From Defluviitaleaceae bacterium (GTDB lineage: Bacteria > Bacillota > Clostridia > Lachnospirales > WRAA01), in NCBI GenBank assembly GCA_009780015.1, contig WRAW01000015.1, positions 1-41,885 on the forward strand: a DNA stretch of 41,885 nucleotides, given 5' to 3'. Below are positions 19,556-31,631 of the stretch, one piece after another (positions within the stretch are counted from its first letter, which is position 1; each line of letters starts with the position of its first letter). The position numbers and the translations under genes are program-made. Under the pieces are notes generated by a model. That model made no database searches. It saw only the letters and a list, made by a program, of their open reading frames with translations, and was not told the origin of the DNA.

Positions 19556-20086
19556 ATGAGCTGCAATTGTTTGGAAAACAAGACATGGATATGCACCGAC
19601 CCGAGTATCGACGTGTCGCTGCTGGAGCCCACGCTGGAAAAGTACACGGATTCAAAAGGTAGCATTATACCGATACTGCAGGCGGCGCAGAATCTGTACG
19701 GATATCTGCCCACGGACTTGATCGCGTATATATCGCGCCGTGCGGGCATCAAGCCGTCGAAGGTGATGGGCGTGGTGACGTTCTACGCGCAGTTTCGCAC
19801 AAAACCGATAGGCAAGCACCTGATAATGCTGTGCAAGGGAACGGCGTGCCATGTAAACGGCGCGTCGATGATTGAGGAAGCTATCCGCGAGAACTTAGGC
19901 GTCGAGGAGGGGGCTATAACCCCGGATGGCCTGTTTACATACAACAACGTGGCGTGTATCGGCTGCTGCAGCCTGTCGCCCGTCATGATGATCGGCGACG
20001 ACACTTTCGGGATGCTTACCAAGGAGAAGGTGGCGGAAGTCCTTGACGGTATCAGGGCGCGCGAAGCGGAAGGGGTGAGCGAATGA
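19556..20086 (+). CDS. NuoE-like subunit of a second bifurcating complex (StnA-like)
   Basis: 176 residues with the NuoE/HydC thioredoxin-like 2Fe-2S domain (CKGTACHVNGA, CIGCCSLSP) after a helical N-terminal part. It is clearly a paralogue of the hydC product. GGGAGG precedes the ATG at 19556, and the gene overlaps the next start by 4 bases. In this three-gene cluster it would relay electrons for the NuoF-like subunit. The Stn-like assignment rests on the neighbours rather than on this protein alone. Confidence 0.8.
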   Translation: MSCNCLENKTWICTDPSIDVSLLEPTLEKYTDSKGSIIPILQAAQNLYGYLPTDLIAYISRRAGIKPSKVMGVVTFYAQFRTKPIGKHLIMLCKGTACHVNGASMIEEAIRENLGVEEGAITPDGLFTYNNVACIGCCSLSPVMMIGDDTFGMLTKEKVAEVLDGIRAREAEGVSE

Positions 20087-21840
20087 CGGCGAAAATATTG
20101 GTCGGAAAGGGAAGCTGCGGTATCGCCGCCGGGGCTAACGTGGTATTTGACGCGCTCTCAAGCGGCGTTCGCGAGTCCGGCGTCGACTGCCCGGTAACAA
20201 TTACAAGCTGCGTCGGAATGTGCTATCTTGAGCCTATTGTAGACGTAATAGACGCTAAGGGCGTTAAGAATACATATGTTCGGATGGATCAGAAGGGCGC
20301 GGGAGAACTTGTCAAGGCTCTGAAAGGCGAGGACAGCGCGGTGGCGCAATATCTTATTTCCGACGCTGACGCGGGTGTTTTGTCGGCGCAGCGCCGGGTC
20401 GCCCTGCTTAACTGCGGCATCATAAACCCTGAGCTGATTGGCGAATATCTTGCCGCCGACGGATACAAGGCTGCCGAGAAATGCCTCAAAGAGAAGACCC
20501 CCGAACAGGTTATCGACGAGATAAAGATATCGGGGCTGGCGGGACGTGGCGGCGCGGGCTTCCCCACGTGGTTCAAGTGGAGTGCGGCCAGAAGCTCTAA
20601 GGGCGACAAAAAGTATGTCATCTGTAATGCCGACGAGGGCGACCCCGGCGCGTTCATGGACCGCGCCATCATCGAGGGCGACCCCCACGTACTGATAGAG
20701 GGTATGCTGATCGCGGCTTACGCTATCGGCTCCGACGAAGGCGTGGTATACGTCCGCGCCGAATATCCGCTGGCCATCACGCGGCTTGAAATAGCCATAG
20801 AGCAAGCCCGCGACGCCGGATACCTTGGGAACAATCTGTTCGGCAGCGGCTTCAGCTTTGATATGCGCATCAAGGCGGGGGCGGGGGCATTCGTATGCGG
20901 CGAGGAAACGGCCCTGATCGCTTCTCTTGAGGGCGAACGTGGTATGCCGCGGCTCAAGCCGCCTTTCCCGGCGCAAAAGGGCTTTTGGCAGCAGCCCTCG
21001 AATATTAACAATGTGGAGACGTTTGCCAACGTGCCGTGGATTATACGAAACGGCGGCGCGGCTTTCAGCGCCATGGGAACCGAGAACTCCAAGGGGACAA
21101 AGGTGTTCGCGCTTACCGGCAAGATCGCCAAGGGCGGCCTGGTGGAAATACCCATGGGTCAGACCATACGCGACGTGGTGTACGGCGTAGGCGGAGGCAT
21201 TAAGGACGGACGCGCGTTCAAGGCCGTGCAGATGGGCGGCCCCTCAGGCGGCTGTATCCCTGCGGGACTCATTGACACACAGATCGACTACAAGACGCTT
21301 GGTGCCACCGGTGCGATAATGGGCTCCGGCGGCATGGTCGTCATGGACGACACAACCTGCATGGTGGACATGGCCAGGTTCTTTCTTGACTTTACATGCA
21401 AGGAGAGTTGCGGCAAGTGCGTACAGTGCCGCATCGGAACCAAGCGTATGCTGGAAACGCTGGAACGCATCTGCGAAGGCGAGGGGCGCGAGGGTGATAT
21501 CGAGCTGCTTGAGAGGCTGGCCAACCAGGTCAAGGACGCTTCTCTCTGTGGCCTTGGCCAGACCGCGCCGAATCCGGTTCTGACCACCATCCGCTATTTC
21601 AGGAACGAGTACGAGGATCATGTATACAACAAGAAGTGTACGGCGCGCCAGTGCAAGCCGCTGCTTACGTATTCCATCGAACCGGAAAAGTGCATAGGCT
21701 GTACGCTGTGCGCGAAGAAATGCCCCAACGACGCCATTGCTGGCGAGGTAAAGAAGCTTCATGTTATAGATATGGATAAGTGCGTAAAATGCGGCAAGTG
21801 CGTGGACGTTTGCAAGTTTAACGCGGTAATTGTGGAATAG
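20083..21840 (+). CDS. NuoF-like NADH/FMN subunit of a second bifurcating complex (StnB-like)
   Basis: 585 residues. Order: a thioredoxin-like 2Fe-2S domain with GKGSCGIAAG and SCVGMCYLEP; the FMN/NADH core (GRGGAGFPTWFKW, NADEGDPGAFMDRA); 4Fe-4S motif ESCGKCVQCRIGTKRM with SLCGLG; and two C-terminal 4Fe-4S motifs (CIGCTLCAKKCP, CVKCGKCVDVC). It is a close paralogue of the hydB product, though shorter at the N-terminus. It sits in a cluster with no hydrogenase catalytic subunit, which points to NADH:ferredoxin chemistry joined to NADP through the next gene product. Confidence 0.85.
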   Translation: MTAKILVGKGSCGIAAGANVVFDALSSGVRESGVDCPVTITSCVGMCYLEPIVDVIDAKGVKNTYVRMDQKGAGELVKALKGEDSAVAQYLISDADAGVLSAQRRVALLNCGIINPELIGEYLAADGYKAAEKCLKEKTPEQVIDEIKISGLAGRGGAGFPTWFKWSAARSSKGDKKYVICNADEGDPGAFMDRAIIEGDPHVLIEGMLIAAYAIGSDEGVVYVRAEYPLAITRLEIAIEQARDAGYLGNNLFGSGFSFDMRIKAGAGAFVCGEETALIASLEGERGMPRLKPPFPAQKGFWQQPSNINNVETFANVPWIIRNGGAAFSAMGTENSKGTKVFALTGKIAKGGLVEIPMGQTIRDVVYGVGGGIKDGRAFKAVQMGGPSGGCIPAGLIDTQIDYKTLGATGAIMGSGGMVVMDDTTCMVDMARFFLDFTCKESCGKCVQCRIGTKRMLETLERICEGEGREGDIELLERLANQVKDASLCGLGQTAPNPVLTTIRYFRNEYEDHVYNKKCTARQCKPLLTYSIEPEKCIGCTLCAKKCPNDAIAGEVKKLHVIDMDKCVKCGKCVDVCKFNAVIVE

Positions 21841-21854
21841 GAGGGGAGAAAGCA

Positions 21855-24800
21855 TTGAGTAAAATTCGTGTAAATATAGACGGGCGCGAGTGTTTCGGCT
21901 ACGACAGCCAGACCATTTTTGAAATCGCCAGAGAAAACGGTGTCGATATCCCAACCCTATGCCACGACGACCGGGTAAAGCTGTACGGAAGCTGCGGAAT
22001 ATGCGTGGTGGAAACCGAGGGGAACCCCAAGCTGCTGCGCTCCTGCTCGACATTAGCCGCAAACGGGATGATTATCAAGACCGATTCTGAGCGTGTGCGT
22101 TATAGCCGTAAGACAACTCTCGAACTGCTTCTCAGCGACCATACCGGCGACTGCCGCCCGCCGTGCGTTCTGGCATGTCCGGCTCAGACAGACTGCCAGG
22201 GCTATGTCGGGCTGATCGCCAACGGCGAGTACGATGAAGCTCTCAAGCTTATAAAGGAAAAGATACCGCTTCCGGCCTCTATCGGAAGGGTATGTCCGCA
22301 TCCCTGCGAAGAGGCCTGCCGCCGCGAGCTTGTGGAAGAACCCATAGCTATAGCCGCGATCAAGCGGTTTGCCGGCGACATGGACATAGACACGGCGGGC
22401 GGGTTGTTTACGCCTGATGTCGGCGAGCCTACGGGCAAGTCCGTCGCTATTGTCGGGGGAGGCCCCGGCGGCTTGACCGCCGCGTACTTTCTGCGGAAAA
22501 AGGGTCATGCCGTAACCATTTACGACGCAATGCCGCACATGGGCGGTATGCTGCGCTATGGAATCCCCGAATACCGCCTGCCTAAGAAGCTGTTGCAGAC
22601 AGAGATAGATTCTATTGAGCAGATGGGCGTAACGCTCAAGAATAATGTCAGAATAGGCAGTGACGTAACGCTGGATCATCTTCGCCGCGTGTACGACGCA
22701 GTTATCGTTGCCGTGGGAGCGTGGTCGTCTTCAGATTTGCGCTGTCCCGGCGAGGAGTTGGACGGCGTGCTGGGCGGTATAGACTTTTTGCGGGATGTTG
22801 TTCTGGGCAGCCGTGTTTTCGCGGGCCGTAAGGTCGCCGTCGTGGGCGGCGGCAACACGGCGATGGACGCCAGCCGCACAGCGGTGCGCCTGGGCGCGGA
22901 GGCGGTCTACAATGTCTATCGCCGCACAAGGAACGAGATGCCCGCGGAGGAAATCGAAATTGTCGAAGCAGATGAGGAAGGCGTAATCTTCAAGAACCTT
23001 ACCAACCCCATTGAAGTAGTGGGCGAAAACGGCAAGGTAGTTGCTCTGCGCCTCCAAGTCATGGAATTGGGCGAGCCTGACGCCTCGGGCCGCCGCGCTC
23101 CCGTTCCGGTTCCCGGTAAGGAGGAACGCCTCGAGGTAGATACCGTCATAGCGGCCATCGGCCAAAAATTGGCCCCTGCTGGCCTTGAGGGAATCGAACT
23201 GACAAAGTGGGGAACCATTTCCGCCGACGAGAGCACGTTCCTGACAAGTCTGCCCGGCGTGTTCGCAATAGGCGACGCTACCAACAACGGCGCGGATATC
23301 GCGATTTCTGCCATCGGAGACGCTGCAAAGGCCGTGGACATGGTGGATCAGTATCTCAAGGGCGAGCGGCTGGAATACAAGGAGCCGTACCTTGTTAAAA
23401 GCGAGAAAACCGCTGAGGATTTCGCGGATAAACAGAAACAGCGGCGCGTACACGCGCATCACCGGCCCGCAAACCAGCGGCGCGGTGACTTCGTAGAGAT
23501 CAGCACGGCGTTCAGCAAGGAAGAAGCCAGGAACGAGGCAAGCCGCTGCCTTGAGTGCGGCTGCCAGGACTACTTCGAGTGCAAGCTGCTTAAATACGCC
23601 CACCAATACGATGTGAGGCCGGAAGACTTCAGCGGAGCAGCGCCCAGCGGCTTAGTGGATGAAACTCATCCGTTCATAGTGCGCAACCCCGGCAAGTGCA
23701 TCCTGTGCGGGCTGTGCGTCCGGGTCTGCGAAGAGGTCGTAGGGCCTGCGGCCCTGGGCCTGGTCAGCCGCGGATTTGGGGCCGAGGTTAAGTCCGCGCT
23801 TGACGCCGGTCTGAAAGACGCCGGATGTATCGGCTGCGGCATGTGCGTGGACATGTGCCCCACCGGAGCGCTGACGGAAACCATGCCTATCGCCAAGAGG
23901 ACTCCTCTTGAGGAGCGGATTACGGAAACAGCCTGTTCCTTCTGTTCGGTAGGGTGCCAGACAAAGCTGGCCTCCGTCGGCAATACGCTTACGCGCAGCC
24001 TTCCCGCCGCCGAAAGGCAGTCAGACGCGTTCCTGTGCGAAAAGGGACGATTCGGATTCGGCGAGATCGCAAGGCGCAAGAGGCTTGCCGCGCCGTTAGT
24101 TAAAGGCGAGGACGGCTTTATAGAAACCAGCTTTGAATATGCGGCGGACTATGCAAACAGAGGCTTGCGCGCGTTGCAGGCGCGGCATGGCGAAGGATGC
24201 GTCGCTGTGGCGATATCCGACAGGTATACGAACGAGGAAGCGTTCTTGATAAAGGAATACGCAAATCGGGCGCTTCATACCGACAAGGTGTTTTCATTCG
24301 GGCGTGTGAGCGGCGGGCTGGGTGATGTCCTTGGGCGCGACTGCTCAACGTCGTCCCTGGACGAGTTGGATGGCACTGAACTGATCGTTCTTGTGGAAGC
24401 CAACTTAATGAAGAACCACGCTTCGGCGGGAATGAAGGTCAGGCGCGCGGCGGGGAACGGCGTCAAGCTGTTGGTTCTCGGCGGCGAAGACCCATTGATG
24501 GACGAGATCGCCACCATGAAGGTAGATACGGGCAATATGGACGTGCTTCGCCAAATGGTAAAGCGAGCTCTTGAGTCCGGCAAAAATAAGAACGCGGACG
24601 GAAGAGATGAATTAGCCGCCTGGCTTGAAAGCATCGCAGTCGGCGAAAAAGCCCGTGCCGCTGCCGATATGTACCTGAGCGCAAAAAAAGCCATAATCAT
24701 TTTTGAGAAAAATACATTATCGAAGGATGCCGCGCGGCTGGTCGGCAATCTGACCGTGCTTGGCGGACACGCGACCGGCCCGCGCGACGGCGTCGTTCAA

Positions 24801-25319
24801 CTGCTGCCCGGCGCAAACAGCCAAGGCTTGTCCGACTTGGACATTCTTCCCGGCGAGGCGTTCCTGGATCAGCTTGCTTCAGGGGAAATCCGCGGCATGT
24901 TTGTATTCGGCGAGGACGTTCCGGGAGTAGACCTCAACAAGCTGGAGTTTCTCGCGGTTCAGGATATCCATATGACCGAGACGGCGCAAAAGGCGGACGT
25001 AGTGTTCCCAGCCTCCAGCTTTGCCGAGACGGACGGAAGCTATACCTCGGCCGATGGAAGAGCGCGGATTCTCAACAAGGCAGTCGAGCCGTATCCCGCA
25101 ATGGACAACAGCGTCCAGGCGCTTGAGCTGGCGGCTCTGGCCGGAGCGCCACTTGGATACCGCAACGCGGAAGACATACGCCGCGCAATACGCCGGAAGC
25201 CAATCGTAAAACAAGCCCCCCGCCTAGCTGTTCCCGGCGGCGAGAACTTGTCGCGGGAGGCGGTTCCGATCAGCAATGAACTATACGCCGGTTTCATAGA
25301 ATATACCGGCAGCAAGTAA
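21855..25319 (+). CDS. Multidomain 2Fe-2S / GltD-NfnB / ferredoxin / FdhA-like fusion (StnC-like)
   Basis: 1154 residues. Residues 1-90: 2Fe-2S domain (CHDDRVKLYGSCGIC). About 95-530: GltD/NfnB-type domain with Fe-S cysteines (CRPPCVLACPAQTDC), the FAD motif VAIVGGGPGGLTAA and the NAD(P)H motif VAVVGGGNTAMDASR followed by NVYRRTRNEMP. About 600-690: two 4Fe-4S motifs (CILCGLCVRVC, CIGCGMCVDMCP). About 690-1154: a formate-dehydrogenase/NuoG-like domain whose 4Fe-4S site is kept (CSFCSVGC...CEKGRFG). Where FDH has its Mo-binding Cys or Sec (RVCHSPSVAGL-like), this protein has RVSGGLGDVLG, so it should not be a formate dehydrogenase. GAGGGGAGA precedes the start. Confidence 0.8.
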   Translation: MSKIRVNIDGRECFGYDSQTIFEIARENGVDIPTLCHDDRVKLYGSCGICVVETEGNPKLLRSCSTLAANGMIIKTDSERVRYSRKTTLELLLSDHTGDCRPPCVLACPAQTDCQGYVGLIANGEYDEALKLIKEKIPLPASIGRVCPHPCEEACRRELVEEPIAIAAIKRFAGDMDIDTAGGLFTPDVGEPTGKSVAIVGGGPGGLTAAYFLRKKGHAVTIYDAMPHMGGMLRYGIPEYRLPKKLLQTEIDSIEQMGVTLKNNVRIGSDVTLDHLRRVYDAVIVAVGAWSSSDLRCPGEELDGVLGGIDFLRDVVLGSRVFAGRKVAVVGGGNTAMDASRTAVRLGAEAVYNVYRRTRNEMPAEEIEIVEADEEGVIFKNLTNPIEVVGENGKVVALRLQVMELGEPDASGRRAPVPVPGKEERLEVDTVIAAIGQKLAPAGLEGIELTKWGTISADESTFLTSLPGVFAIGDATNNGADIAISAIGDAAKAVDMVDQYLKGERLEYKEPYLVKSEKTAEDFADKQKQRRVHAHHRPANQRRGDFVEISTAFSKEEARNEASRCLECGCQDYFECKLLKYAHQYDVRPEDFSGAAPSGLVDETHPFIVRNPGKCILCGLCVRVCEEVVGPAALGLVSRGFGAEVKSALDAGLKDAGCIGCGMCVDMCPTGALTETMPIAKRTPLEERITETACSFCSVGCQTKLASVGNTLTRSLPAAERQSDAFLCEKGRFGFGEIARRKRLAAPLVKGEDGFIETSFEYAADYANRGLRALQARHGEGCVAVAISDRYTNEEAFLIKEYANRALHTDKVFSFGRVSGGLGDVLGRDCSTSSLDELDGTELIVLVEANLMKNHASAGMKVRRAAGNGVKLLVLGGEDPLMDEIATMKVDTGNMDVLRQMVKRALESGKNKNADGRDELAAWLESIAVGEKARAAADMYLSAKKAIIIFEKNTLSKDAARLVGNLTVLGGHATGPRDGVVQLLPGANSQGLSDLDILPGEAFLDQLASGEIRGMFVFGEDVPGVDLNKLEFLAVQDIHMTETAQKADVVFPASSFAETDGSYTSADGRARILNKAVEPYPAMDNSVQALELAALAGAPLGYRNAEDIRRAIRRKPIVKQAPRLAVPGGENLSREAVPISNELYAGFIEYTGSK

Positions 25320-25345
25320 TCCGTAATCAATAATTTCCATGTGTG

Positions 25346-25382
25346 AAGCAATCCGATGCTGTTGCGTCATGCCGGATTGCTT
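25346..25382 (+). terminator. Terminator-like hairpin after the transhydrogenase operon
   Basis: AAGCAATCCG and CGGATTGCTT form a perfect 10-bp stem with a 17-base loop, 27 bases after the stop, followed by TTGCGC. The T run is short. Confidence 0.55.
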
Positions 25383-25385
25383 TGC

Positions 25386-25500
25386 GCATTATAGGAATAT
25401 GACTGCGAAACTGCATCAAATGAGGGGTGCGCGGAATCGCAAGATCCCGTGCTGTTTACCCCGGCGCGTGATGCAGATTGAGCTGCATATTCCTATATGC
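25386..25500. repeat. 115-bp imperfect inverted repeat
   Basis: GCATTATAGGAATATG (25386-25401) pairs with CATATTCCTATATGC (25486-25500), and CTGCATCA (25411-25418) pairs with TGATGCAG (25469-25476); GGGG and CCCC lie further in. This gives a long interrupted hairpin with no coding potential. Its ends do not match the other elements in the window. It may be another miniature element or a structured transcript. Confidence 0.5.
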
Positions 25501-25546: not shown

Positions 25547-25575
25547 TTGACAACCACTTCGATTAATAGTAAACT
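25547..25575 (+). promoter_or_regulatory. Promoter of the pyr operon
   Basis: TTGACA (25547-25552), a 17-base spacer and TAAACT (25570-25575). The expected start near 25582 gives a very short 5' end before the leader peptide's ribosome binding site. Confidence 0.7.
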
Positions 25576-25596
25576 ATTTCGGGCGGTGAATGAATA

Positions 25597-25719
25597 ATGG
25601 TACTGATTGACGTTGGAATATGGAACAATGAAGGAATGTGGGGTAATCTTATTCCCAATTTCAATCTTCATCTTCAATCTTCACCTTCAATTTTAAATTT
25701 TGTTTTTCAATCTCCTTGA
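25597..25719 (+). CDS. Predicted pyr operon leader peptide (40 codons)
   Basis: A 40-codon open frame starting MVLIDVGIWNNEGMW and ending FVFQSP-stop. The ribosome binding site is GGGCGGTGA (25581-25589), one mismatch from GGAGGTGA, with about 8 bases to the ATG. The second half is read through a pyrimidine-rich stretch, and 13 of the 17 bases at 25691-25707 are T. The TGA stop (25717-25719) lies in the loop of the terminator hairpin. A ribosome finishing this frame would therefore cover the 5' arm of the hairpin. This is the logic of the E. coli pyrBI leader; the peptide itself shows no similarity that I can see. Confidence 0.6.
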   Translation: MVLIDVGIWNNEGMWGNLIPNFNLHLQSSPSILNFVFQSP

Positions 25720-25741
25720 TTCGCGGGGAGATTTTTTATTT
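25709..25741 (+). terminator. Attenuator-like intrinsic terminator before pyrB
   Basis: AATCTCC (25709-25715) pairs with GGAGATT (25727-25733), followed by TTTTATTTC. It is downstream of the operon promoter and 20 bases before pyrB, so it must be read through for expression. The T-rich tract just before it would make RNA polymerase pause when UTP is low. No sequence resembling a PyrR-binding loop was recognised. Confidence 0.65.
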
Positions 25742-25759
25742 CAGGGAGGAGAGGTTTGA

Positions 25760-26689
25760 ATGGACTTGCAAGGCAGACACCTGGTAGAACCGCTGGATTT
25801 ATCGGTGGATGAGATTGAATGGCTGATTGACGCGGCCGGGCGCATTGTTGCCAAGCCCGAGGATTATGCCGAAGCTTGCAAGGGGAAACTGCTTGCGACG
25901 CTGTTTTACGAGCCAAGTACGAGGACTAGGTTTTCGTTCGAGGCGGCGATGCTGCGGCTGGGCGGGCAGGTTATCGGCTTTTCAGAGCCGTCGTCAAGCT
26001 CCGTGTCAAAGGGCGAAAGCATTGCGGACACCATCAGGACTGTCGCGTGCTACGCGGATATAGCGGTCATGCGCCATCCAAAGGAGGGTTCGGCCCTGGT
26101 GGCGTCGAGGTGTGCTGACATACCCGTCATCAACGGCGGGGACGGCGGACATCATCACCCGACGCAGACCCTAACCGACCTGATGACCATTAAGCTCGAA
26201 AAGGGCGGATTTAACAACATTACGGTGGGGATGTGCGGCGACTTGAAGTTTGGGCGCACGGTACACTCCCTGATACGCGCGCTTACCCGTTACAGCGGTG
26301 TAAGGTTTGTGCTGATTTCCCCGGATGAACTTCGCGTACCGGAATATGTGCGCGAAGAGGTCGAGAGGTCGGGCGCGGAGTTCGAGGAGACCCGCGACTT
26401 GCGCGAAGCCCTGCCGGAGCTTGACGTGTTGTACATGACCCGCGTGCAGCGCGAGAGGTTTTTTAACGAAGAGGATTACATCCGTCTCAAAGACAGCTAT
26501 ATCCTTGACGCGGAAAAACTCAGGAGCGCCAAACAAAGCTTGATGGTACTTCATCCGTTGCCGCGCGTAAACGAAATATCCGCAGATGTGGACGCCGACC
26601 CGCGCGCCTTCTATTTCCGGCAGGCCAAGAACGGCATGTATATCAGGATGGCGCTGATAATGGCGCTGCTCGGATCGAAAGGGGTATAG
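25760..26689 (+). CDS. pyrB: Aspartate carbamoyltransferase catalytic chain
   Basis: 309 residues, the standard length. It joins carbamoyl phosphate and aspartate, the first committed step of pyrimidine synthesis. The carbamoyl-phosphate motif is [15 protein letters not shown] (near 52), HPTQTLTDL is near 134 and HPLPRVNEI near 265. GGGAGGAGAGG lies before the ATG. pyrI follows after 2 bases, so this is the regulated, dodecamer-forming type of enzyme. Confidence 0.95.
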
Positions 26690-26691
26690 TC

Positions 26692-27108
26692 ATGGAAATA
26701 AACAGCATTGCCAACGGGATCGTTATAGACCATATCCGCGCCGGGTTTGGGCTCAAGGTGCTGGAATACCTGAAAATTGACAAGGGGCTTGGCTCCGTGG
26801 CAATAATTATGAATGCCGTAAGCGAAAAGCACGGCCGTAAAGACCTTATCAAGCTTGAAAACGTCGAAAACGTCGATGTGGACGTGCTGGGGCTTATCGA
26901 CCATAACGCGACGGTAATATACATTAAAAACGATGGGATCGTGAAAAAAGCGAAGCTGTCGCTCCCCGAGAAAGTGACGAACGTAATCCTGTGCAAGAAT
27001 CCGCGCTGCGTTACGTCGGTTGAGGCTGTGCCGCATGTGTTCCATCTGGCGGACGCTTCGGGCAAGTATCGGTGCGAGTATTGCGACAACATGGTAAAAA
27101 GCCAATGA
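26692..27108 (+). CDS. pyrI: Aspartate carbamoyltransferase regulatory chain
   Basis: 138 residues. The N-terminal allosteric nucleotide-binding domain starts INSIANGIVIDHI, and the C-terminal zinc domain holds the four cysteines as CKNPRC and CEYC. It links the catalytic trimers and confers nucleotide feedback. The stop overlaps pyrC by ATGA. Confidence 0.94.
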   Translation: MEINSIANGIVIDHIRAGFGLKVLEYLKIDKGLGSVAIIMNAVSEKHGRKDLIKLENVENVDVDVLGLIDHNATVIYIKNDGIVKKAKLSLPEKVTNVILCKNPRCVTSVEAVPHVFHLADASGKYRCEYCDNMVKSQ

Positions 27109-28406
27109 GAGATAATCGGCAACTGTTGATTACCGGCGGAAGGGTCATTGATCCGCGAAGCGGAACCGACGAGGCGCGCGACATATTTGTCGCAGACGGC
27201 GTTATCAGGCCGGTTTTCGCCGACACGCCGGATTGCCGCGTGTTTGACGCGTCCGGGATGATTATTGTTCCGGGGCTTGTGGACTTGCATGTGCATTTTC
27301 GTGAGCCGGGCGCGGAGTATAAGGAAGACATAGAGTCCGGAAGCCGCGCGGCGGCGCGCGGTGGATACACGACGGTTTGCTGTATGCCGAACACAAAACC
27401 GGCCATTGACAGCCGGGAGATTGTTGAGCTTGTGGCCGGGCGCGGCCGAAAAAACGGGCTTGTGAACCTGCTTGTCGTGGGGGCTCTTAGCAAGGGGCAG
27501 GAAGGGCGTGAGCTCGCCGATTTTGAGGGGATGCTAAGAGGCGGCGTATGCGCCCTGTCCGACGACGGCAAAACGCTCATGGATTATGATCTGATGCGCC
27601 AAGCCGCAACGCGCGCGAAAGAACTTGGCCTGCTGATAACAGACCACGCTGAAAATCATGTTAAAAGCGTGGGCGGCGTTATTAACGACGGCGACGTGTC
27701 GCGGAGTTTAGGGGTCTATGGAATACCGAGCAGCGCTGAGGCCGACATTGTTGCGCGGGATATCGAGCTTGCGCGGGAAACGGGATGCCGTATACACTTG
27801 CAGCACATCAGCGCAAAGGAAAGCGTCGCGCTGATATGCGAGGCAAAGCGCCGGGGTATCCCCATAACCGCCGAAACAGCCCCGCATTACTTCACCTTGA
27901 CTGACGAGGCGGTGCTTGTCCACGGCGCAAATGCCAAGATGAACCCGCCGCTGAGAACAGAGAGCGACAAACAAGCCATAATCGAAGCTCTGCGCGACGG
28001 TACAATCGACGTCATAGCCACAGACCACGCGCCGCATTCCGTAGAAGAAAAATCGCGGCCGCTTGAACAGGCGCCGTTTGGCGTTGTCGGGCTGGAAACG
28101 GCGTTCGCGGTAAGCTATACCGCGCTGGTTGCTCCGGGGCACATAACTTTGCCGGAGCTTGTACGCCTGATGAGCTTTAACCCGGCAAACATCCTGAACT
28201 TAGAGAGCGGCGGTCTTGCCGTCCGTGATACGGCGAATTTCGCGGTGTTTGATATTGGCAATCCGTACGGCATTGATTGTGGAAGATTCGTATCCAAAGG
28301 TAGGAATACGCCGTTTAACGGGATGAAGGTGTACGGGCGTACGGCTCTCACTGTTTGCAGCGGTAAGATAAGTTGGGAGGACGGCAATGATAGATCATTT
28401 AATTGA
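27105..28406 (+). CDS. pyrC: Dihydroorotase
   Basis: A 433-residue class I (amidohydrolase-type) dihydroorotase. Metal ligands are visible in DLHVHFREPG (near 60), in the His residues of ITDHAEN and LQHISA, and in ATDHAPHS (near 305). The ATG at 27105 overlaps the pyrI stop; a longer in-frame extension would lie inside pyrI and is not favoured. It cyclises carbamoyl aspartate to dihydroorotate. It overlaps pyrF by 20 bases. Confidence 0.93.
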   Translation: MRDNRQLLITGGRVIDPRSGTDEARDIFVADGVIRPVFADTPDCRVFDASGMIIVPGLVDLHVHFREPGAEYKEDIESGSRAAARGGYTTVCCMPNTKPAIDSREIVELVAGRGRKNGLVNLLVVGALSKGQEGRELADFEGMLRGGVCALSDDGKTLMDYDLMRQAATRAKELGLLITDHAENHVKSVGGVINDGDVSRSLGVYGIPSSAEADIVARDIELARETGCRIHLQHISAKESVALICEAKRRGIPITAETAPHYFTLTDEAVLVHGANAKMNPPLRTESDKQAIIEALRDGTIDVIATDHAPHSVEEKSRPLEQAPFGVVGLETAFAVSYTALVAPGHITLPELVRLMSFNPANILNLESGGLAVRDTANFAVFDIGNPYGIDCGRFVSKGRNTPFNGMKVYGRTALTVCSGKISWEDGNDRSFN

Positions 28407-29286
28407 AAGGATCGAAGTCTTGGGCGCGCCGGTTGTCGTCGGGCTTGACCCGACTCTGGAAATGATACCGGGAAGGATTAGGCAAGGCGATTCCTTTGAG
28501 GCGATATCCTCGGCGATGTTTGAGTTCAACCGTGAGATTATCGACGCGGTATACGACCTTGTGCCAGCCGTCAAGCCGCAGATAGCCATGTATGAGCGAT
28601 TCGGCGCCGACGGGCTGTGGGCGTACGCGGATACGGCGGCCTATGCCCGAAGCAAGGGTCTGCTGGTTATCGGAGACATAAAGCGCGGTGATATATCAAG
28701 TACGGCGGAGGCATACGCCGCGCACATCGGCGGTACGGAAGCGGGCGGACAAAGGCTCTTTCCCTGGCCGGTGGATGCCGTGACGCTGAACCCGTACTTC
28801 GGTAAGGACAGCTTGACGCCGTACCTCGACATATGCGCGGCGCAGGAGAAGGGAATATTCCTGCTGGTCAAGACGAGCAACCCCGGCAGCGGCGACTTAC
28901 AGGACTTGCGGCTGGAGTCCGGCAAGCTGGTTTATGAGCATGTCGCCGACTTGGTGTCGGAATGGGGCAGGGATTTTGTCGGCAAGCACGGCTACAGCAA
29001 GGTCGGGGCTGTGGCAGGTGCGACGTTTCCCGAGCAGGGCCGCGAAATGAGGAAGCGTATGCCTCACACCTTCTTCCTTGTACCGGGATATGGGGCGCAG
29101 GGAGGGTCAGGCAAGGACTTGCAAGGATTTTTTGACGCAGACGGGTCGGGCTGTATAGTAAACTCCTCGCGCGGTATTACAGCGGCTTGGAAGAAGGACA
29201 AACGCTTTGGCGAACACGGCGTAGGCGACGCGGCGCGCGAGGCCGTGGAAGCCATGATAAAAGACTTGAGGGAGGCTTGGTCTTGA
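28387..29286 (+). CDS. pyrF: Orotidine 5'-phosphate decarboxylase (long type)
   Basis: 299 residues, the longer PyrF type. The catalytic lysine/aspartate motif is IGDIKRGDISSTAEAY near residue 96. VVGLDPTLEMIPG at the start and the phosphate-binding region near GYGAQGGSG agree. It makes UMP from OMP. GGGAGG precedes the ATG inside the end of pyrC. Confidence 0.93.
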   Translation: MIDHLIERIEVLGAPVVVGLDPTLEMIPGRIRQGDSFEAISSAMFEFNREIIDAVYDLVPAVKPQIAMYERFGADGLWAYADTAAYARSKGLLVIGDIKRGDISSTAEAYAAHIGGTEAGGQRLFPWPVDAVTLNPYFGKDSLTPYLDICAAQEKGIFLLVKTSNPGSGDLQDLRLESGKLVYEHVADLVSEWGRDFVGKHGYSKVGAVAGATFPEQGREMRKRMPHTFFLVPGYGAQGGSGKDLQGFFDADGSGCIVNSSRGITAAWKKDKRFGEHGVGDAAREAVEAMIKDLREAWS

Positions 29287-30035
29287 GCGGCGTATGTACT
29301 GCCGAGATTATAGGCAACGACGAAATCGCGCCCGGGATATTCAAGCTGCGCCTGAGGTTGCCCGCCGGGTATCAGCGCCCGGAGCCGGGGCAGTTTGTGA
29401 ATCTTTATCTTAACGACCCAAGCCGCTTGCTTCCGCGCCCTATCAGCGTCTGCGGCTGGCACGAAAGCGTGCTGACCTTGGTTTACGCTGTGGTCGGCGC
29501 GGGAACCAGGGCGATTTCCGGCTATGGAATCGGAGCGAAAATCCGCGTTTCGACCCCGCTCGGAAACGGCTTTGCTGTACAGCCGGTCAAAAGCTGTATA
29601 TTGGTCGGCGGGGGCGTTGGTGTGCCGCCGCTGTTATATCTTGCGAACAGGCTGGCGGAGAATGGCCGTGATGCCCTTGCGGTGTTGGGTTTTCGCGGCG
29701 AGCCGTTTTTGACGGACGAATTCCCATGCGCCGTAGAAGTCGCCACAGACGACGGTTCCGCAGGATTCAAGGGTAACGTGGTGGAGCTGCTGGAAAAGTT
29801 GAATCTCCCGGCGTCCGGCACGCAAATATTAGCCTGCGGGCCAAAGCCGATGCTTGGGGCTCTGGCGAAGTTTGCCGCCAAGCGCGGTATTGCGCTGCAA
29901 GTATCCCTCGAGGAACGTATGGGCTGCGGCTATGGCGCGTGTGTGGGCTGCGTCTGCAAGACGGCGGGCGGTAGCCGCAAGGTATGCGAGGATGGGCCAG
30001 TGTTTGCCGGGGACGAGGTGATTTGGGATGAGTGA
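29283..30035 (+). CDS. pyrK: Dihydroorotate dehydrogenase electron transfer subunit
   Basis: 250 residues from a TTG that overlaps the pyrF stop, with GGGAGG about 7 bases upstream. FAD binds through RPISVCGW; NAD contacts are expected around GGGVGVPPLLY; the 2Fe-2S cluster is held by MGCGYGACVGCVC and the later CEDGP. It passes electrons from PyrD to NAD+. It overlaps pyrD by 8 bases. Confidence 0.93.
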   Translation: MSGVCTAEIIGNDEIAPGIFKLRLRLPAGYQRPEPGQFVNLYLNDPSRLLPRPISVCGWHESVLTLVYAVVGAGTRAISGYGIGAKIRVSTPLGNGFAVQPVKSCILVGGGVGVPPLLYLANRLAENGRDALAVLGFRGEPFLTDEFPCAVEVATDDGSAGFKGNVVELLEKLNLPASGTQILACGPKPMLGALAKFAAKRGIALQVSLEERMGCGYGACVGCVCKTAGGSRKVCEDGPVFAGDEVIWDE

Positions 30036-30942
30036 TTTGCGGGTTATCTTTTGCGGGCTGGAGCTTCAGAACCCGATTGTTACGGCCTCCGGTACGTTTT
30101 CTGCGAAGGGAAGCGGAAAGTTCTACGACTTTTCGAGATTGGGCGCGGTTACGTCAAAGGGCGTGGCAATCGACCCGTGGCCGGGAAACCCTACGCCGCG
30201 CATAGCCGAGACGCACAGCGGTATGCTCAATGCCATAGGGCTGGAAAACCCCGGAGCGGAGAGGTTTATCGCTGAGGAACTGCCGCTTATAAGAAACGGA
30301 ATTGATTTTTCCGGCACAAGGATAATCGCAAACGTAGCGGGTCGCAGCGTTGAAGAGTATGTGCGGGCCGCCGAACTGCTTAACGCCGCTGACGTAGACA
30401 TGCTCGAGCTTAACATATCATGCCCGAACATCAAGGAAGGCGGCGTTTCATTCGGAACGTCCCCAGCAGTGGCCGCCAAGGTTACGCAGGAAGTGCGCCG
30501 CGTCGTGACAAAGCCGCTCATAGTAAAGCTGACGCCTAATGTGACGGACATTTGCGAAATAGCGCATGCGGCGGAGTCATCCGGGGCGGACGCGCTTTCC
30601 CTTATAAATACGCTGACCGGAATGAGGATAGACGTACGGAAGCGCCGCCATGTTCTCGCGAACAAAACAGGCGGGCTTTCCGGCCCCGCGATAATGCCTG
30701 TAGCGATACGCATGGTCTATCAAGTCGCTTCCGCGGTAAAGATACCCATACTGGGCATGGGCGGGATTATGAGCGGCGCGGATGCGGCGGAATTCCTGAT
30801 GGCGGGGGCTTCGGCGGTAGCCGTGGGCACTGCGGCGCTGGTAGACCCCACCGCGCCGGTGCGTATATTGGATGAACTGAAAGACTTCATGGACGAGCAT
30901 GGTTTTGCAAATATCGAGGCAGTCAAAAACGCATTGAAATAG
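30028..30942 (+). CDS. pyrD: Dihydroorotate dehydrogenase, class 1B catalytic subunit
   Basis: 304 residues. The active-site cysteine of class 1 enzymes is in ELNISCPNIKEGG near residue 135, and the FMN phosphate region is IPILGMGGIMSGADAAEF. Together with pyrK this is the NAD-dependent 1B form, as expected in an anaerobe. Confidence 0.94.
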   Translation: MSDLRVIFCGLELQNPIVTASGTFSAKGSGKFYDFSRLGAVTSKGVAIDPWPGNPTPRIAETHSGMLNAIGLENPGAERFIAEELPLIRNGIDFSGTRIIANVAGRSVEEYVRAAELLNAADVDMLELNISCPNIKEGGVSFGTSPAVAAKVTQEVRRVVTKPLIVKLTPNVTDICEIAHAAESSGADALSLINTLTGMRIDVRKRRHVLANKTGGLSGPAIMPVAIRMVYQVASAVKIPILGMGGIMSGADAAEFLMAGASAVAVGTAALVDPTAPVRILDELKDFMDEHGFANIEAVKNALK

Positions 30943-30965
30943 ATAAATTATGCCAGGAGGCGGGT

Positions 30966-31631
30966 ATGGATTATAAGTCGGAATTTATAACGTTTATGGC
31001 AAGGGCGGGCGCGCTCACCTTCGGGGACTTTGTCACGAAGAGCGGGCGAAGGACGCCGTACTTTGTAAACACGGGCAAGTACAGCGATGGCGGACAGATT
31101 TCCAGGCTGGGAAATTTCTACGCCGACTGCATCATGGAAAACGTAAATATCACCGAGAATACAGTGCTGTTCGGCCCGGCTTACAAGGGCGTCGCACTTG
31201 CGGTGTCCGCGGCAGTCGCGCTGTCCGGGCGCGGGGTGAACGTGGGCTACTGTTTCAACCGCAAGGAAGTCAAGGATCACGGAGAGGGCGGCGCGCTGGT
31301 CGGGCACAAGTTGACCGGCGGCGACAGGGTACTCATCATCGAAGACGTAATCACGGCTGGCACGGCTGTGCGGGAAGTACTGCCGATACTTCAAGAAGCC
31401 GGAGCGGTCGTAGACGGTTTGATAATATCCGTAGACCGCATGGAGCGCGGCGCTGGCGAACGTACCGCGATACAGGAGATATGGGAGGAATACAATATCC
31501 CAACGTTCCCAATCGTAAATGTGCGTGACATTCTCAAGTGCCTTCACAACAACCCCGTAGACGGAAAAGTATTGATAGACGACGGTACGGCGGCGCGAAT
31601 AGAAGCTTATATGGAGGAATATTGTGTATAG
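30966..31631 (+). CDS. pyrE: Orotate phosphoribosyltransferase
   Basis: 221 residues. The PRPP-binding motif is VLIIEDVITAGTAVREV near residue 125; GPAYKGVALAV and the flexible loop FNRKEVKDHGEGG are also typical. CAGGAGG lies 6-7 bases before the ATG. It is the last gene of the pyr operon. Confidence 0.94.
   Translation: MDYKSEFITFMARAGALTFGDFVTKSGRRTPYFVNTGKYSDGGQISRLGNFYADCIMENVNITENTVLFGPAYKGVALAVSAAVALSGRGVNVGYCFNRKEVKDHGEGGALVGHKLTGGDRVLIIEDVITAGTAVREVLPILQEAGAVVDGLIISVDRMERGAGERTAIQEIWEEYNIPTFPIVNVRDILKCLHNNPVDGKVLIDDGTAARIEAYMEEYCV

Follow-up and report, generated by a model that had tools for sequence, protein, structure and literature searches.

A pyrimidine biosynthetic operon is located in the genome of a Defluviitaleaceae bacterium (GCA_009780015.1, contig WRAW01000015.1, forward strand), within a stretch of 41,885 nt that was analysed as a whole and is referred to as the window. 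The operon is preceded by a putative regulatory region (25547-25759), and the features of the locus are the following:

25547..25575, + strand: promoter, with the -35 box TTGACA at 25547-25552, a 17 nt spacer, and the -10 box TAAACT at 25570-25575 (10/12 matches)
25582..25589, + strand: Shine-Dalgarno (SD) site of the leader ORF, GGCGGTGA, coinciding with the predicted transcript 5' end or close to it
25597..25719, + strand: leader ORF (pyrL-like), with ATG at 25597, 40 codons, and TGA at 25717-25719
25664..25708, + strand: U-rich (pyrimidine-rich) tract, the last codons of the leader ORF, proposed from its composition only as the site of UTP-sensitive pausing
25709..25741, + strand: intrinsic terminator, a 10-bp hairpin (25709-25733) with a loop of 5, then the T run TTTTATTT
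25760..26689, + strand: pyrB, aspartate carbamoyltransferase catalytic subunit
26692..27108, + strand: pyrI, aspartate carbamoyltransferase regulatory subunit
27072..31631, + strand: pyrC, pyrF, pyrK, pyrD, and pyrE, the remainder of the operon

An earlier interpretation of this DNA (the sequence-only reading) had recognised a pyrBI-like attenuator here, made up of a strong promoter, a 40-codon leader with a good ribosome binding site, a T-rich tract, and a terminator whose loop holds the leader stop codon, all just before pyrB. The ORF was recovered, encoding the 40-aa peptide MVLIDVGIWNNEGMWGNLIPNFNLHLQSSPSILNFVFQSP, together with its SD site, which shows a single mismatch versus GGAGGTGA. 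The T-rich tract is equally evident: the 45 nt located 5' of the stem contain 53% T and 76% pyrimidine, the former value being reached by 6e-5 of the 45-mers of the window. As for the promoter, its -35 box is perfect and the whole is one of the two best matches in 11 kb, but 7 matches were found in these 11 kb versus a shuffle mean of 7.0, so that the match, though present, does not go beyond chance and alone proves little. The terminator, whose score was equalled in 8/1000 leader shuffles, does carry the stop codon in its hairpin, but not entirely in the loop, as 25717-25718 belong to the uppermost part of the 5' arm, 25719 being the first loop base. The 26 nt existing between the terminator and pyrB leave no room for a promoter, and the operon must therefore be transcribed through the terminator. 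The folding of the whole leader has an MFE no better than that of shuffled sequences (z 0.18) and is uninformative. In shuffles of the window locus alone, an ORF with an SD site stops at this terminator with a chance of 0.022; the strength of the case comes from the relatives.

Upstream of the operon, the region 20083-25319 encodes a NuoF-like flavoprotein followed by a protein of 1154 aa, in which a part resembling the glutamate-synthase small subunit is joined to one resembling NuoG/formate dehydrogenase; this protein matched no full-length NCBIfam model at cut-off. A hairpin with 17-nt arms (82% complementary) lies at 25339-25389, shortly 3' of the stop of this upstream gene (25319), and is possibly its terminator. 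Just 5' of the pyr promoter, an imperfect inverted repeat of 29 nt (76%), whose arms (25390-25418 and 25469-25497) are 50 nt apart, is present in single copy in the window.

PyrR is the usual regulator of pyrimidine operons in Firmicutes. The PyrB orthologues were gathered from genome searches and their upstream regions were scanned, disclosing three types of organization. In the first, a leader ORF accompanies a terminator; in the second, seen in Caloramator, Fervidicella, Clostridium drakei, and others, the terminator is accompanied by PyrR loops; and in the third, that of the Lachnospiraceae and some near relatives, no terminator exists. About 25 related genomes have the first layout upstream of pyrB, the leader-type loci being the window, L002, L004, L031, L032, L034, L035, L112-L114, L116, L117, L136, L138, L139, L141, L142, L144-L150, L047, and the Treponema locus L083; the named strains Clostridium aminobutyricum DSM 2634 and Bacilliculturomica massiliensis harbor it. 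In most relatives a TTGACA-like promoter is located 20-80 nt 5' of the ORF, and GG(T/C)GGTGA-like SD sites are also present in L031, L032, and L116. The peptides are unlike each other, typical C-termini being IFIITILSFVYFIF, SIQYFVF, IVFIVFLYMSP, and CYFIYSYFNN (each followed by the stop), and all of these ends are encoded by U-rich codons. The stop typically coincides with one of the hairpin bases 1-10, most relatives having it among the first of them, and the ORF passes through the hairpin in L116, L047, and L149 only. The conservation of the leader that was expected from the sequence-only reading hence concerns the ORF, the U-rich end, the stop position, and the terminator, which recur in these ~25 genomes, and not the peptide sequence, which is not conserved between distant relatives. 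Neither leader nor terminator was found at pyrB in the near relatives L003, L005, L033, and L115, so that the device is dispensable. At a further locus (L137 in G676, 1235-1323), the Rfam Clostridiales-2 RNA (RF02937) lies between the terminator and pyrB.

The association between ORF and terminator was evaluated by a shuffle test in which the terminator was kept and the upstream 215 nt were shuffled (dinucleotides kept), counting the ORFs that span 12-70 codons, have an SD match of five bases, and stop at the terminator. Such an ORF was found in 19/45 loci without PyrR sites versus 1.64 expected from the shuffles (P 7e-17) and, once the window and its near-copies had been removed, in 16/39 versus 1.48 (P 6e-14), both P values being indicative as the loci are not fully independent; none of the 19 PyrR-type controls has an ORF stopping at the terminator. 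These counts derive from a strict criterion, which misses the leaders with a weaker SD (L002, L113, L114, L139, and L141) and the run-through ones (L116, L047, and L149). Moreover, in the 45 nt preceding the stem the leader class has a stronger excess of U over A than the PyrR class (P 1e-6), and this excess is also stronger near the stem than further upstream (P 2.5e-5). In the ordinary genes of the same genome the stem begins past the stop codon in 17/17 cases (median 13 nt), unlike in the leader. The stop-to-stem distance, taken as a gauge of coupling, gave no useful contrast between these 17 terminators and an E. coli sample of 9.

The leader peptides of L136, L138, and L140 (the latter from C. 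aminobutyricum) can be aligned over 55 codons and show 20-25 amino-acid changes versus the 33-38 expected with substitutions placed at random (0/2000 draws as low). The substitutions at the three codon positions (11/14/30, 21/13/34, and 19/16/33) fall mostly at the third one, and the leader frame of this trio is under protein-level constraint. The same test was not significant for L139/L141 and L047/L149, which are either too close or have too few changes. The peptide of the window has no close relative of its own, and the translation of its ORF is presumed from the class to which it belongs. The leader of L136, L138, and L140 (G599, G663, and C. aminobutyricum) is unusually long (55-56 codons), with the conserved core YPSV.ELICLLPLSG and the C-terminus DDC(I/L)I, and its role may extend beyond the carrying of ribosomes, e.g., to that of a stalling peptide.

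The PyrR RNA element (RF00515) has no match in the window, in its genome, or in the leader-type loci. The PyrR protein was not found in the genome of the window (best 29.8 bits, a partial match, against a cut-off of 138), whose assembly is 84% complete, so that this absence alone is weak; however, the protein is absent from 30/30 of the genomes checked in which pyrB has no PyrR sites, and 8/8 of those with such sites possess it. Duplex folding of the terminator 5' arm against the upstream sequence detected a significant complement in 1/26 ORF-type leaders versus 15/19 PyrR-type controls. Hence, neither a PyrR-binding loop nor an antiterminator, either of which would have spoken against the sequence-only reading, was found in the leader, and with both missing the ribosome is left as the evident switch.

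On the whole, it is very likely that the element of the window is a pyrBI-type translation-coupled transcription attenuator, as its recurrence, the ORF excess (19/45), and the lack of PyrR and of an antiterminator suggest, with UTP-sensitive pausing and blockage of the hairpin by the ribosome as its predicted steps. Transcription would start near 25582, and a ribosome would load immediately on the leader ORF. When UTP is ample, the RNA polymerase would outrun the ribosome, allowing the hairpin 25709-25733 to form and transcription to stop before pyrB. When UTP is low, the polymerase would slow down in the U-rich codons and the ribosome would close up and reach the stop at 25717-25719, where it would cover the 5' arm of the hairpin, so that the polymerase could continue into pyrBICFKDE. 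In E. coli, termination has been reported to fall from ~90% to <10% when a ribosome occupies a stop codon located 5 bp ahead of the terminator (PMC4824070), and the clostridial stop position appears thus suited to masking the hairpin. According to PMC7858274, which cites Johnson 2020, the polymerase of B. subtilis largely outruns the ribosomes; tight coupling in Firmicutes cannot therefore be assumed, and a default outrunning with a catch-up upon U-rich pausing at low UTP would be compatible with this picture.

The pyrBI (pyrL) system of E. coli and Salmonella is the closest in organization: in both cases a leader ORF with a T/C-rich tract in its 3' half precedes pyrBI, the terminator overlaps the ORF, no antiterminator exists, and the operon begins with pyrB and pyrI. 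The same scripts applied to MG1655 recovered the ORF, the U/C-rich tract, and the terminator as expected (pyrL spans -138 to -4 and crosses the terminator, which is located at -50 to -31 and preceded by CCGTTTTTCTTCCCG). Unlike in the window, where the stop is inside the hairpin, the 44-codon ORF of E. coli extends past the terminator, with only 3 nt left between its end and pyrB. Tight coupling across pyrL has been described as needed to prevent the terminator from forming (PMC5021804). The window element is best regarded as a new, and probably convergent, form of pyrBI attenuation, with the stop usually at or in the hairpin rather than beyond it. It shares a translated (here predicted) leader and a terminator with the amino-acid leader-peptide attenuators known in Firmicutes, including the hisZ/hisS leader of bacilli (PMC2965389), but these contain a regulatory codon run and an alternative hairpin, both missing here, and the operon of the window is a pyrimidine one.

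Other explanations were considered. As no switch other than the position of the ribosome is evident, the signal sensed by the attenuator might be an amino acid or the status of translation instead of UTP; termination would then change when the ribosome stalls or is missing, and the U-rich codons would be incidental. Phe, Ser, Ile, and Leu are indeed frequent among the last leader codons. This explanation appears unlikely, though, because no single amino acid dominates (the highest is Phe, with 14%), there is no antiterminator as in the trp or his attenuators, the operon makes pyrimidines, and the U enrichment is a nucleotide-level property common to unrelated peptides. The PyrR-dependent attenuation of B. 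subtilis, Caloramator, and C. drakei acts on the same operon through similar terminator hairpins, which could be taken to indicate a PyrR-type or other RNA switch with a site too diverged to be recognised and an ORF present by chance. This possibility, already largely refuted, is very improbable: binding loop, PyrR protein, and antiterminator pairing are missing from the window system, the leader MFE is not better than that of shuffles, and the ORF excess is about tenfold over them.

Just as improbable is that the ORF represents a small gene like any other, having a terminator of its own, or that it only raises pyrB translation by re-initiation. Stop codons near terminators are described as common in Firmicutes (PMC7858274) and leader ORFs are proposed as an aid to re-initiation (PMC4833913); nevertheless, no other promoter position is available for pyrB in the window, the stem of the ordinary genes lies after the stop, and no peptide is common to the whole group. 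Finally, the pyrG reiterative-transcription attenuator also concerns a pyrimidine gene, with a terminator in the leader and GGGC near the start, and the predicted transcript start of the window is inside TTTCGGGCGG; in such a scheme the transcript would start with GGGC, extra G residues would be added at low CTP, and the poly-G would pair with the 5' arm. This is the least credible explanation, as the start region (GGGC) is not conserved in relatives, the 5' arm AATCTCC has only two adjacent C, and the ORF, central here, would be left with its excess unexplained; besides, the pyrG of the same genome does not have such a leader. In the same genomes, a leader of the pyrB kind was found neither 5' of carA nor 5' of pyrG. 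The pyrG upstream regions L189 and L190 (G599 and G394) have a common leader, AATAAGG...CCTTATTTTTTT, in an attenuator-like arrangement. The carA gene (carbamoyl-phosphate synthase small subunit) was not found at E 1e-60 in the genome of the window (G000) or in G085, G124, G232, G164, G185, and G665, all of them with pyrB, which may be due to assembly incompleteness or to another source of carbamoyl-phosphate.

Returning to the UTP-sensing attenuator, its origin was explored with a quick PyrB tree, with moderate branch supports, in which a single cluster (support 90) of 45 rows (28 leader, 16 none, and 1 PyrR, the latter being the nested L143) contains the leader-type loci. This cluster lies among the PyrR-type clostridia, while E. 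coli is placed on a very long separate branch. Moreover, the terminators of the basal leader-type loci L147, L148, and L150 (GCCTTCC...GGAAGGC) resemble the PyrR-type ones. We read this as a putative switch from PyrR to leader control on the lineage of this cluster, with later losses. An origin independent of the enterobacterial pyrL-pyrBI, which the sequence-only reading had put forward as a possibility, is thus favoured by the position of the leader loci and the remoteness of E. coli, within the limits of a quick tree and a long branch. In the termite-gut Treponema L083 and L099, pyrB clusters with the clostridial pyrB and is preceded by a similar leader ORF and terminator (in L083 the ORF ends with MQIMKVYTIKPRFPVFFIILYK and the stop), which suggests that Treponema may have obtained pyrB by transfer together with its leader. 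Overall, it seems likely that in PyrR-less clostridia (the order of the window and Family XIII-like lineages) and in some termite-gut Treponema, PyrR was lost and a UTP-sensing translational attenuation of pyrB evolved independently, with the stop at the hairpin so that the terminating ribosome would mask the 5' arm.

In 2010, Naville and Gautheret (PMC2965389) presented the histidine leader of bacilli as, to their knowledge, the first such leader peptide system outside Proteobacteria and Actinobacteria, without mention of pyrB. A search of the open-access literature found no pyrBI-type leader reported for Firmicutes, and with this scope the novelty of the clostridial system is provisional. 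If the proposed mechanism is true, ribosome and polymerase can couple in these Firmicutes when the polymerase slows down, and a protein-RNA regulator, PyrR, would have been convergently replaced by a race between ribosome and polymerase, with a switch point traceable in the PyrB tree. The system would offer a natural test of transcription-translation coupling in Firmicutes, the two processes being reported as mostly uncoupled in B. subtilis, and the presence of the layout in C. aminobutyricum DSM 2634 and B. massiliensis makes it testable in named strains.
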